From Prevotella aurantiaca JCM 15754 (GTDB lineage Bacteria > Bacteroidota > Bacteroidia > Bacteroidales > Bacteroidaceae), in the NCBI RefSeq assembly GCF_000614025.1, contig NZ_BAKF01000006.1, positions 1 to 64,000 on the forward strand: a stretch of DNA of 64,000 nt, written 5' to 3'. Numbering within the stretch: the stretch's first letter is position 1; each line of letters starts with the position of its first letter. The position numbers and the translations under genes are program-made. The notes beneath the pieces were generated by a model that did no database searches, was not told the DNA's origin, and saw nothing but the letters and a program-made list of their open reading frames with translations. Shown here piece by piece: positions 5,783 through 9,233 of the stretch.

Positions 5783-6604
5783 CTACTTTTTTACAACTTT
5801 CGTACCATTCACAATATAGATTCCCTTTGGAAGGTCTTTCAAATCTTTATCCAATCTCATTCCACTCATAGAGTAAATACCTTTTGGAGCTACTGCATTC
5901 ACAACTGGTGTAGCGATTGCAGTAGGATCTTTCGTTATAACAATCTTACTTTTTACCACATTGTTACCAACTGTTACACAACGCATAGATGGATTATAGA
6001 CAGCTCCAACTGGTTGAGTAATACTGCAGCCATTTAATGTAAGCGATGCTATATCAAGTATCGAACCGGTTTCTTTACCTTCTACTGTTACCGTAGCATT
6101 TTGGATAGTTACATGCTCTATCATGCCGTCATTTCCGGTGATACCATATTTACCACTTTTTGCATTTACGATACAATTGTCAATGGTCAAATCAGTTCCC
6201 ATTGCAAAGAAAGCACAATTATCTCCACCTTCTACATTGAGGGTTCCACCACCAGTGATAAACATTGGAGCTCTAAATCCAACAGCTGTACGTATTGAGG
6301 TTAGATTATTAGTGCCGATGACTTTTACTGTTAGTCCATCAATTTTTGAAGAAATTGCATCATTTTCTCCAGAATTGATAGTTGCATTTTCCAGTGTTAA
6401 GGTCTTGGTTTCTGGGTCATAACTTACTTTTCCGCTAACTCCAGCTATCATCGAGAGATCATTACAATTGTTTGAGCTTACTTGTGAGTTAGAAATCCAG
6501 AGATCGTACATGGTTTGCGCCTGAACTGGTGATGTTAGTGTCAACATTGCGATAAATAATACAATAACTATTGCACATTTGTCTTTAAGTAATGTTTTAT
6601 ACAT
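5783..6604 (-). CDS. Secreted beta-helix-like protein with T9SS-type C-terminus (paralogue 1)
   Basis: A 273-residue exported protein of unknown function. Residues 1-30 are a signal peptide ending around VQAQ. The body has repeated short strands with GVSGKVSYDPETKTLTLENATI and turn-rich repeats, resembling the putative carbohydrate-binding right-handed beta-helix proteins of Bacteroidetes. The C-terminus (GIYSMSGMRL...LPKGIYIVNGTKVVKK) resembles T9SS sorting tails of Prevotella. It is a clear paralogue of the gene at 8269-9138 and shares a structured 5' leader with it. Surface location and sugar binding are inferences. Confidence 0.75.
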   Translation of the reverse strand: MYKTLLKDKCAIVIVLFIAMLTLTSPVQAQTMYDLWISNSQVSSNNCNDLSMIAGVSGKVSYDPETKTLTLENATINSGENDAISSKIDGLTVKVIGTNNLTSIRTAVGFRAPMFITGGGTLNVEGGDNCAFFAMGTDLTIDNCIVNAKSGKYGITGNDGMIEHVTIQNATVTVEGKETGSILDIASLTLNGCSITQPVGAVYNPSMRCVTVGNNVVKSKIVITKDPTAIATPVVNAVAPKGIYSMSGMRLDKDLKDLPKGIYIVNGTKVVKK

Positions 6605-6674
6605 TTAAATTTATACCTCCCTATTGAAACTCTTGATAGAGTAACGCCGTGTCGAAGGTTTGGGCGTTTAGGTT
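6605..6674 (-). promoter_or_regulatory. Structured 5' leader with predicted pseudoknot (copy 2)
   Basis: On the minus strand a 6-bp stem P1 (AACGCC at 6668-6663 with GGCGTT at 6648-6643) is followed at once by a 5-bp hairpin P2 (ACTCT/AGAGT, loop ATCA). After 8 bases comes a purine-rich segment (6620-6615) that can pair with the P1 loop (6659-6654; 6 bp, one G-U). The purine segment lies 10 bases before the ATG and overlaps the likely ribosome-binding site. The same architecture and spacings occur before the paralogue at 9138. Confidence 0.65.
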
Positions 6675-6922: not shown

Positions 6923-7140
6923 CTACTTCTTTACGGTTTTTTGCCGTTAATGATGTAGATACCCTTTGACAAGTCTTTTTCGTTCCCATTGAGTTTCACA
7001 CCACTAAGAGTATAGATTTCTTGTGGAGCTACAGAGTTGCTGGTTGTAGTATTGATACCTGTTGGGTCTCTCACGATGAGAATTTTGGTCTTTACAACTT
7101 TCCTATTGACAACTAGACCACCACTTGAACGGTCGAATCT
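6923..7140 (-). pseudogene. 3' remnant of a third secreted paralogue
   Basis: On the minus strand about 70 codons read VVNRKVVKTKILIVRDPTG, then VAPQEIYTLSGVKLNG and LSKGIYIINGKK. This aligns with the C-terminal quarter of the neighbouring secreted paralogues (DPTAIATPVVNAVAPKGIYS). A missing base in an A-run near 6935 replaces the expected ending TVKK-stop by P-stop. The 5' part is absent: an in-frame stop lies just upstream, and beyond it plus-strand regulator sequence begins. A recombination or deletion relic. Confidence 0.75.
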
Positions 7141-8268: not shown

Positions 8269-9138
8269 TTATTTCTTCACTGTCTTTTGTCCATCTACAA
8301 TGTAGATACCTGCAGGTAGATGTTTGAGCTTCTGATTTACTCGCCCTCCGTCTAATGTGTATATACCTTTCTTCTTAGCAGTTGTATCCATATTAGCTGA
8401 CTTAATGCCAGAAGCACCCTTGGTGATTACAACCCAATCAGTAACTACTTCTCGGTTTGCACCATAAAGATAGAAGTAAGGATATTCGTATTCTTCAATT
8501 TCTTCCCAATAGGTTCCAGTAGGCGAAGTAATTGCACAATTAGTAAAGACAGGCGGATTGTCCCATACCCAACCAATACTACCTTTGTGAGAGCTATTAC
8601 TCTTGGCACCACCTTTAGTACGCACGTCGCAGTTATCGAATACCCAATAGCCACCATAGAGCCCATTGCTTCCACCAGTTGCTTCCACGCTACAATCTTT
8701 TATCATAATAGAGCCTTGGTTGAAAACAGCCTTGTTATATTTATCGTCAGTTGCTTTTGTCGAACCTGTTAGTATAAGTTTATCATCGCCTATTATAGAC
8801 ACTTCTTTGTCCATATTCCATATTGCAGTATGATTATCAGAAATAATTGAACTTTCTTTGTTTACACGAATAACAAGTCCGTCAACCCTGTTCTCAAGTC
8901 CATGTGTTGTTGTGGCATGTATGGTTGCGCCATCAAGAGTCAACACCTTATTTTCATTGTTGTACTTCGCCTTACCAGTTACACCCTTTATCGTGCTAAG
9001 GTCGTCGCAGTTAGCCGAAGTGACAGCAACACCAGCAATCTTTAGGTTATAAACACTTTGTGCAAGTCCTTGCTGCGGTATAGCAAAGAACAGCGCAGCA
9101 ACTGCTGCATACATACTTTTAGTAAAATTGTTTTTCAT
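8269..9138 (-). CDS. Secreted beta-helix-like protein with T9SS-type C-terminus (paralogue 2)
   Basis: A 289-residue exported protein of unknown function. The signal peptide covers about residues 1-27, ending QQGLAQ. It is related along its length to the product of 5783-6604: NCDDLSTIKGVTGKAKYNN, KVLTLDGATI, and a tail (KKGIYTLDGGRV...LPAGIYIVDGQKTVKK) of the T9SS-like type. Repeated short strands suggest a parallel beta-helix. Its 5' leader carries the same pseudoknot as paralogue 1, and a -7 promoter element lies just upstream. Sugar or surface binding is inferred only from similarity to Bacteroidetes carbohydrate-binding-annotated proteins. Confidence 0.75.
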   Translation of the reverse strand: MKNNFTKSMYAAVAALFFAIPQQGLAQSVYNLKIAGVAVTSANCDDLSTIKGVTGKAKYNNENKVLTLDGATIHATTTHGLENRVDGLVIRVNKESSIISDNHTAIWNMDKEVSIIGDDKLILTGSTKATDDKYNKAVFNQGSIMIKDCSVEATGGSNGLYGGYWVFDNCDVRTKGGAKSNSSHKGSIGWVWDNPPVFTNCAITSPTGTYWEEIEEYEYPYFYLYGANREVVTDWVVITKGASGIKSANMDTTAKKKGIYTLDGGRVNQKLKHLPAGIYIVDGQKTVKK

Positions 9139-9209
9139 TGTTCAACGTTGCCTCTCCATTTACCCTTTATTAAGGGAACGCCTTACCGAGGCAGGGGCGT
9201 TTAGGTTAA
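9139..9209 (-). promoter_or_regulatory. Structured 5' leader with predicted pseudoknot (copy 1)
   Basis: Minus strand: P1 AACGCC (9201-9196) with GGCGTT (9182-9177); immediately next P2 CCCTT/AAGGG with loop AATA (9176-9163); 8 bases; then GAGGCA (9154-9149) pairs perfectly with TGCCTC in the P1 loop (9193-9188). The GAGG lies 10 bases from the ATG, so the pseudoknot would cover the ribosome-binding region. Spacings are identical to copy 2, while P2 and the pseudoknot helix differ in sequence but keep pairing. Confidence 0.7.
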
Positions 9210-9225
9210 GTAATGTAATCGGTTA

Positions 9226-9233
9226 CAAATATA
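9226..9233 (-). promoter_or_regulatory. -7 element for the gene at 8269-9138
   Basis: TATATTTG on the minus strand fits TAnnTTTG. It would start the transcript about 10 bases before the structured leader, placing the whole pseudoknot in the 5' UTR. Confidence 0.55.

Follow-up and report, generated by a model that had tools for sequence, protein, structure and literature searches.

Among the described RNA classes closest to the leaders considered here, SAM-II riboswitches are small H-type pseudoknots controlling translation, and preQ1-II riboswitches carry an extra hairpin in loop 3. SAM-V is likewise described, in the part of the literature available, as a small H-type pseudoknot that acts on translation. 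In preQ1-II (RF01054), according to the accessible part of its description, SD bases are held in the knot helix of an H-type pseudoknot and control is exerted on translation (PMC11625349). Autoregulation through an extended SD was described for rpsU (bS21), where a strong complement of the anti-SD occurs in a class of bacteria with masked anti-SD (PMC9976891). In the accessible sections of the same report, no Bacteroidales met the criteria for this rpsU system, while strong SDs before rpsR are mentioned for this order (PMC9976891). Several candidate structured RNAs were reported from the same phylum: Bacteroidales-1, Bacteroides-1, Bacteroid-trp, and GUCCY-hairpin (PMC2864571, as excerpted). 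Also, two motifs found only in Prevotella, HMP2_6893 and HMP2_905, were located near uvrC (PMC8040213, as excerpted).

The DNA analysed here (the window) is a stretch of 64,000 nucleotides from Prevotella aurantiaca JCM 15754. It contains two mRNA leaders, A and B, which share with preQ1-II the architecture only: P1, P2, and the pseudoknot are supported by covariation, and the tail pairs with the anti-SD core. Unlike preQ1-II, however, the leaders match no Rfam model, occur in Bacteroidota rather than Bacillota, and are often intercistronic. The preQ1-II-associated gene queT (COG4708) was not recognised among the 25 groups of downstream proteins, the main ones of which were domain-scanned. By sequence, genes, and taxon, the leaders do not belong to preQ1-II. 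They differ from SAM-II and SAM-V by the absence of an Rfam match and of a recognised SAM or methionine gene downstream, and by insertion of P2 directly after P1. In the rpsU system, an extended SD is reported and the accessible text mentions no knot (PMC9976891); the leaders, by contrast, hold the SD in a pseudoknot and precede metabolic and secreted-protein genes. Those motifs listed in the available part of PMC2864571 that have an Rfam entry do not match the leaders; GUCCY-hairpin is listed there without such an entry. The gene uvrC, near which the two HMP2 motifs are described (PMC8040213), was not recognised among the downstream groups.

A cmscan search against Rfam 15 at gathering thresholds gave 0 matches in the 64,000 bases of the window and 30,596 bases from ten relatives. 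At E up to 5, the regions around both leaders yielded no riboswitch and no credible weak match. A known Rfam class was rejected, since neither the window nor the ten other loci matched, and the element remains as unassignable as the initial annotation had judged it. Searches of the open-licence literature of PubMed Central gave no description of the leader family; a 2017 screen of 224 motifs was covered to the extent that its motifs have entered Rfam. The leader family is without a match in the public RNA-family library.

Anatomy of the two leaders

Leaders A and B both lie on the minus strand and, as read from the window sequence, agree to the base with the initial annotation (Table 1). The claimed features were all seen: P1 (AACGCC/GGCGTT) is common to both leaders, and P2 is swapped from CCCTT/AAGGG to ACTCT/AGAGT with loops of four bases. 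The P1 loop pairs with a downstream purine segment, forming six Watson-Crick pairs in leader A (TGCCTC/GAGGCA) and including one G-U pair in leader B (ACCTTC/GGAGGT). Spacings are the same in both: 0 nt from P1 to P2, 8 nt from P2 to the knot strand, and 10 nt from the knot to the ATG.

The Bacteroidota -7 promoter motif is TAnnTTTG, and a sequence that fits it is located upstream of leader A (Table 1). Homologues of gene A occur in the named organisms Prevotella nigrescens, P. pallens, and Alloprevotella tannerae. Public sources call the homologues P0002, P0014, and P0018 'ribosomal protein L7/L12' or 'L7/L12 domain protein'; a Pfam scan of gene A revealed no L7/L12 domain.

Table 1. Positions of leader elements, genes, and neighbouring features in the window
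Feature	Position	Strand	Basis
Leader A, P1 5' strand AACGCC	9196..9201	-	sequence; P1 kept in 95.0% of cells, 104 leaders
Leader A, pseudoknot 5' strand TGCCTC, inside P1 loop	9188..9193	-	sequence; pseudoknot 92.6% of cells paired
Leader A, P1 3' strand GGCGTT	9177..9182	-	sequence
Leader A, hairpin P2 CCCTT-AATA-AAGGG, abutting P1	9163..9176	-	P2 96.6% of cells paired
Leader A, P2 arms CCCTT / AAGGG, loop AATA	9176-9172 / 9167-9163	-	sequence
Leader A, 8-nt linker from P2 to knot strand	9155..9162	-	A-rich across the family
Leader A, pseudoknot 3' strand GAGGCA, SD-like, ATG 10 nt on	9149..9154	-	sequence; anti-SD pairing
Leader B, P1 5' strand AACGCC	6663..6668	-	sequence
Leader B, pseudoknot 5' strand ACCTTC	6654..6659	-	sequence
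Leader B, P1 3' strand GGCGTT	6643..6648	-	sequence
Leader B, hairpin P2 ACTCT-ATCA-AGAGT	6629..6642	-	sequence
Leader B, P2 arms ACTCT / AGAGT, loop ATCA	6642-6638 / 6633-6629	-	sequence
Leader B, pseudoknot 3' strand GGAGGT, SD-like, ATG 10 nt on	6615..6620	-	sequence; anti-SD pairing
Gene A, secreted paralogue, 289 aa, under leader A	8269..9138	-	ORF; signal peptide read by eye
Gene B, secreted paralogue, 273 aa, under leader B	5783..6604	-	ORF; signal peptide read by eye
TATATTTG, fits -7 motif TAnnTTTG	9226..9233	-	sequence; 24 nt 5' of leader A P1
C-terminal remnant of a third paralogue (...GIYIINGKK), between genes A and B	6930..7040	-	by eye
ISL3-type transposase (PF01610), opposite direction, start 88 nt upstream of leader A P1	9289..10131

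Folded as single sequences, the leaders are unremarkable: the nested-fold z-scores are -0.92 (leader A) and -0.77 (leader B), and the minimum-energy nested fold of leader B pairs the knot strands in place of P1. The case for structure therefore rests on comparison.

Covariation in the leader family

Alignment A6 comprises 104 distinct leaders, in which 95.0% of cells in P1, 92.6% in the pseudoknot, and 96.6% in P2 are paired (94.5% overall). Double changes numbered 208 as compared to 76.8 in shuffles; this control, like the permutations reported below, ignores relatedness among the leaders. All six pseudoknot pairs change on both sides. The covariation score was 0.383 (0.190 in shuffled alignments), and only 41-65% of cells remained paired once the partners were slid by 1-3 columns. 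The models used for searching (R1-R3) contained no pseudoknot, which was therefore not built into the alignment. The same pattern was seen outside A6 in 24 further matches, most of them from other genera and none identical to an A6 row: 89.8% of cells were paired (85.4% in the pseudoknot), with 39 double changes versus 11.1 in shuffles. Compensatory changes in every helix, both in A6 and in these further matches, are what is expected of a cis-acting structured leader. The initial annotation had read compensatory change between leaders A and B as good evidence of RNA structure. The 104-leader alignment bears this out, although the two sequences alone were insufficient and single folds are weak.

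Two types of leaders were distinguished by GGGGGG in the tail; the split is one of convenience, some leaders from other genera being intermediate. In the less G-rich type (47 leaders), the mean pairing energy of each leader's own loop and tail was -10.5 kcal/mol versus -8.9 kcal/mol after permutation, and 0 of 5000 permutations were as good. For the G-rich type, the corresponding values were -14.20 and -14.35 kcal/mol, with 4274 of 5000 permutations as good as the native combination. The C-runs and G-runs of this type are nearly invariant, and the swap test is silent because both strands hardly vary. Pairing between the 5' strand of P2 and the tail would be possible in 97% of cells of the G-rich type and in 69% of those of the other type; an alternative fold between these two segments could thus exist in the G-rich type. 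Since its swap test is silent and this P2-tail pairing is possible, the register of the knot rests on the less G-rich type.

G-U pairs occupy 61 of 616 cells in the knot and 29 of 415 in P2, which points to a probable RNA rather than DNA element. Several unpaired bases are nearly invariant, namely a C after P1 (97%) and three A columns in the linker (96%, 93%, and 85%). Their location may be that of loops 1 and 3 in an H-type pseudoknot containing groove triples. The near-invariance of these unpaired C and A residues would also suit a metabolite riboswitch, whose aptamer would be the pseudoknot and whose small-molecule ligand would stabilise or open it. The fold itself resembles preQ1-II as given in the available part of the source: loop 3 of an H-type pseudoknot accommodates a hairpin, and the knot helix contains SD-like bases (PMC11625349). 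We nevertheless regard a riboswitch as unlikely: helix sequences vary freely, with few fixed positions in the loops, no Rfam riboswitch matched, and the 25 downstream groups reveal no evident common pathway.

Distribution, genomic position, and inheritance

The search of relatives with a covariance model, which the initial annotation had proposed, revealed a family whose three helices all covary. When the window's own genome (3.0 Mb) was searched with a pattern of P1 alone, five more hairpins came up: four belong to full leaders before a paralogous secreted-protein gene, and one is unrelated. Model R1, made from five leaders with P1 and P2 only, gave 12 matches in this genome at E 1e-3 or better (15 at E up to 1) and matched at least 12 of 60 genomes of the genus, own genome included (E up to 0.01). 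Other forms of P1 were found before core genes, with GACC/GGTC, GGCC/GGCC, or GCC/GGC replacing CGCC/GGCG. Model R2 (31 leaders) matched at least 76 of 249 genus genomes, again including the window's own (E up to 0.001; matches read in part). With model R3 (105 leaders), 12 copies were counted in the window's genome; one of the ten closely searched genomes contained none. In a draw from the bacterial family, R3 matched at least 41 of 301 genomes, representing 11 of 30 genera (E up to 1e-4). In the phylum-wide draw, the only match among 247 genomes was to the window's own genome; the other 246, with 18-92 candidates scored per genome, gave none at E up to 1e-5. All searches of more than 40 genomes scored 18-92 candidates per genome, so their counts are lower bounds, and weak model matches include half-elements and chance matches.

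Inspection of the 28 new loci from the family draw identified 21 as leaders before a start codon, distributed over seven genera (g1, g10, g14, g15, g19, g21, and g24). The remaining seven (L148-L154) are not leaders before a start codon, and neither are L031-L033 and L037 from the R1 genus search; L141 and L142, located at contig ends, are leaders. A merged pattern applied to named genomes gave 17 matches in 16 stretches; Prevotella pallens ATCC 700821 and P. falsenii DSM 22864 are among the genomes matched. Of the 17 matches, 15 read as leaders and two (L175, L181) lie in other sequence. Leaders A and B are members of a pseudoknot RNA family in Prevotella and neighbouring genera. Loss of P2 or of the loop-purine pairing in relatives, or a match to a characterised RNA, had been named at the outset as grounds for abandoning the proposal. 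The relatives keep both elements and no characterised RNA matched; the description as a covarying pseudoknot RNA that spans the start region and falls outside known classes holds.

In 100 of the 104 leaders, an ORF of at least 50 aa begins with an ATG located 1-14 nt past the knot (5-13 nt in 98 of these 100). Such an ATG was present at 1441 of 5200 random places in the same loci (27.7%). In the four other leaders, an ATG is similarly placed, but its frame is shorter within the sequence examined. A fixed sense position before start codons, as in 100 of 104 cases here, characterises a cis-acting leader.

The downstream proteins (n = 101) formed 25 BLAST groups; they were named by scanning one member per main group against NCBIfam or Pfam, and the sample represents the best-scoring leaders. 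The largest group comprises the secreted paralogues (36 proteins; the similarity linking them may include signal-peptide regions), followed by a zinc-ribbon protein (10), AraA (10), GH57 (8), SdhB (4), and LpxA (4). Icd, AmtB, AraD, DapL, prephenate dehydrogenase, acyl-CoA dehydrogenase, a sodium symporter, and an RND pump occur as singles or pairs. Leaders from other genera precede genes for glutamine synthetase III, PurC, galactokinase, and a class-III aminotransferase. These 25 groups rule out a family limited to the two secreted paralogues. Of the initial placement of the element at the start of those genes, the start-region position was retained; the tie to the paralogues was not, the leader being often intercistronic. 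No ribosomal-protein gene, as expected for a ribosomal-protein autoregulatory leader, was recognised among the 25 groups by eye and by domain scans.

Some individual loci deserve mention. L140 contains two leaders in tandem (714-772 and 1501-1559), before araD and araA. In L014, from the window's genome, a leader precedes a 59-aa frame that starts like the secreted paralogues and is probably a broken gene. L016 and L017, compared with L023 and L040, are alike in the leader and the signal-peptide region (MKPNLL...) but differ in the mature proteins, as if a 5' cassette had been shuffled.

Among leaders with at least 400 nt of upstream sequence, a sense ORF of at least 100 aa ends within 60 nt of P1 in 29 of 54 of the G-rich type, some of these ORFs being doubtful, and in 9 of 39 of the other type; three and eight leaders, respectively, were left out for having too little upstream sequence. 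Ten hand-picked upstream ORFs all contained Pfam domains. Six of the resulting pairs are textbook partners: AraD-AraA, SdhA-SdhB, EtfA-acyl-CoA dehydrogenase, HlyD-RND, P-II-AmtB, and DAHP synthase/chorismate mutase-prephenate dehydrogenase. The other four are NIF3-zinc ribbon, OEP-LpxA, glycosyltransferase-GH57, and ArgR-acetyltransferase (the acetyltransferase named by eye). In seven zinc-ribbon cases, the stop codon of the nif3-like gene overlaps P1 or lies close to it (-3 to +8 nt). A promoter-like motif was present within 120 nt upstream of P1 in 26 of 104 leaders, and matches to this motif in the 250 nt upstream numbered 39 in sense and 18 in antisense orientation.

Because many copies are intercistronic, control of translation rather than of transcription is favoured. 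A transcription attenuator was rejected on account of the AUG 1-14 nt past the knot and the many copies inside operons. The intercistronic location, together with stable GC-rich hairpins before start codons, could also be explained by an mRNA-stability or processing element that would shield the downstream message and leave translation unaffected. This explanation seems very unlikely, since the distance from the upstream stop codon to P1 is loose (-3 to 56 nt within the 60-nt limit) while the start codon follows the knot within a narrow range (5-13 nt in 98 of 100), and since covariation reaches the pseudoknot covering the initiation region.

Within the genus, the zinc-ribbon gene is almost universal (35 of 40 genomes); of the 30 loci fetched from 40 genus genomes, one has a leader before it and 29 do not. 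This patchy presence shows the leader to be dispensable. When leader presence (12) and absence (17) were mapped on a tree of 29 zinc-ribbon proteins, four changes of state were required as compared to 9.6 after shuffling, and one of 500 shuffles was as low. The leader before the zinc-ribbon gene is inherited clade-wise, with few gains or losses.

A half-element consisting of P2 and tail without P1 occurs away from start codons in a few genomes. Half-elements of the form CCCCC..GGGGGATAAGAGGGGGGC without full P1 and loop were noted in L191, L192, L194-L197, L200-L203, and L148-L154; the copy in L150 seems to lie within a coding frame. The exact 18-base core was found 0-5 times per genome in 14 genomes, and a single G-rich repeat spread everywhere was rejected for this rarity. 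A phage-borne origin was rejected, as two exact patterns had no match in viral contigs. The dispersed half-element and the patchy presence at the same gene could reflect a mobile or REP-like DNA repeat that settled near genes by chance. REP and MITE elements would be present in many copies, in either orientation and independent of starts, but the full leaders are sense-oriented and start-proximal, and only the half-element is dispersed, in some genomes. The constant spacing from the start codon, the compensatory changes found throughout the helices, the G-U pairs, clade-wise inheritance before the zinc-ribbon gene, the rarity of the exact core, and the lack of a match to two exact patterns in viral contigs all argue against a DNA repeat, which we consider highly improbable.

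The ribosome-binding region and a putative translational lock

The 3' strand of the knot is purine-rich, with A or G in 100 to 105 of 105 rows in each of the six columns. Pairing energies were calculated for a ten-base sequence which we take to be the anti-SD. Mean pairing with the anti-SD core was -9.3 kcal/mol (43 leaders) and -11.3 kcal/mol (58 leaders) in the two types. The values for comparison were 0.03 kcal/mol in 29 leaderless zinc-ribbon orthologues and -2.1 kcal/mol in 40 unvetted window ORFs, genes A and B included. A 4-nt SD core, which not all leaders possess, was present in 34 of 43 and 47 of 58 leaders, in 1 of 29 leaderless orthologues, and in 7 of 40 window ORFs.

According to PMC3155529 (available in part), SD sequences and structure are both avoided 5' of start codons in Bacteroidota. 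In P. bryantii, the accessible results of that study indicate that addition of an SD had no effect on translation, while a structure of -5.2 kcal/mol holding the SD decreased protein about fivefold; a hairpin of -9 kcal/mol at -21 had no such effect (PMC3155529). Ribosomes of Bacteroidia hide the anti-SD behind bS21, bS18, and bS6, according to the available part of PMC9976891. The suggestion of the initial annotation that the ribosome-binding region would be sequestered fits the anatomy of the leaders and these published Prevotella data.

We consider it fairly probable that this family of pseudoknotted mRNA leaders in Prevotella and neighbouring genera acts as a translational lock. The P1 loop would pair with the purine-rich, SD-like segment a few bases 5' of the start codon, and the knot would keep ribosomes off the downstream cistron until something opens it, thereby setting the amount of protein made from each gene. 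Initiation would be blocked by default; a low default level is suggested by the knot helix near the AUG, the sensitivity of P. bryantii to structure, and the hidden anti-SD. Genes of unrelated pathways carry this one RNA, which suggests that the knot may be opened by a single trans-acting condition or factor common to all of them. Candidate openers are a ligand, an RNA-binding protein, or ribosomes with exposed anti-SD. For the zinc-ribbon gene only, a ribosome terminating on nif3 may be added as a further candidate.

As an alternative to the lock, the knot could be the binding site through which an RNA-binding protein runs a post-transcriptional regulon, with the zinc-ribbon coiled-coil protein as the leading candidate. 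Zinc-ribbon genes and araA are the commonest single genes after the paralogue family (10 of 101 each in the sample of best-scoring leaders), and the zinc-ribbon gene itself often carries the leader. Its product contains a C4 zinc-ribbon domain (PF02591) and shows a weak CdsZ-like match far below the cut-off; from these two features, a kinship to HP0958 and BB0713 may be proposed. The candidacy as a binder follows from what the available reports say of these relatives: HP0958 binds flaA mRNA (PMC5947703), and Borrelia BB0713, a coiled-coil protein with a C4 zinc ribbon, has RNA chaperone activity (PMC13285594). However, nearly every genome of the genus contains the zinc-ribbon gene, in contrast to the patchy occurrence of the leader, and the window's genome possesses the gene with no leader found before it. 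The protein-site explanation appears decidedly unlikely.

A broader version of the translational lock can be formulated as a single post-transcriptional regulon of Prevotella and its neighbours, in which an SD-masking pseudoknot before unrelated cistrons would respond to one dedicated trans-acting opener, either the zinc-ribbon RNA chaperone or 30S subunits with exposed anti-SD. This version is speculative, and we give it a small chance of being correct. An SD-bearing, GC-rich, conserved pseudoknot sits exactly where Bacteroidota reportedly avoid SD sequences and structure. If the regulon reading is true, it would reveal a use for SD sequences in a lineage thought to ignore them. The pseudoknot, repeated before genes of central metabolism and of secreted proteins in Prevotella and neighbouring genera, would represent a layer of post-transcriptional control for which the literature searches gave no earlier description. 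The leader is small and modular, and may offer a handle on why Bacteroidia retain a seemingly unused anti-SD.
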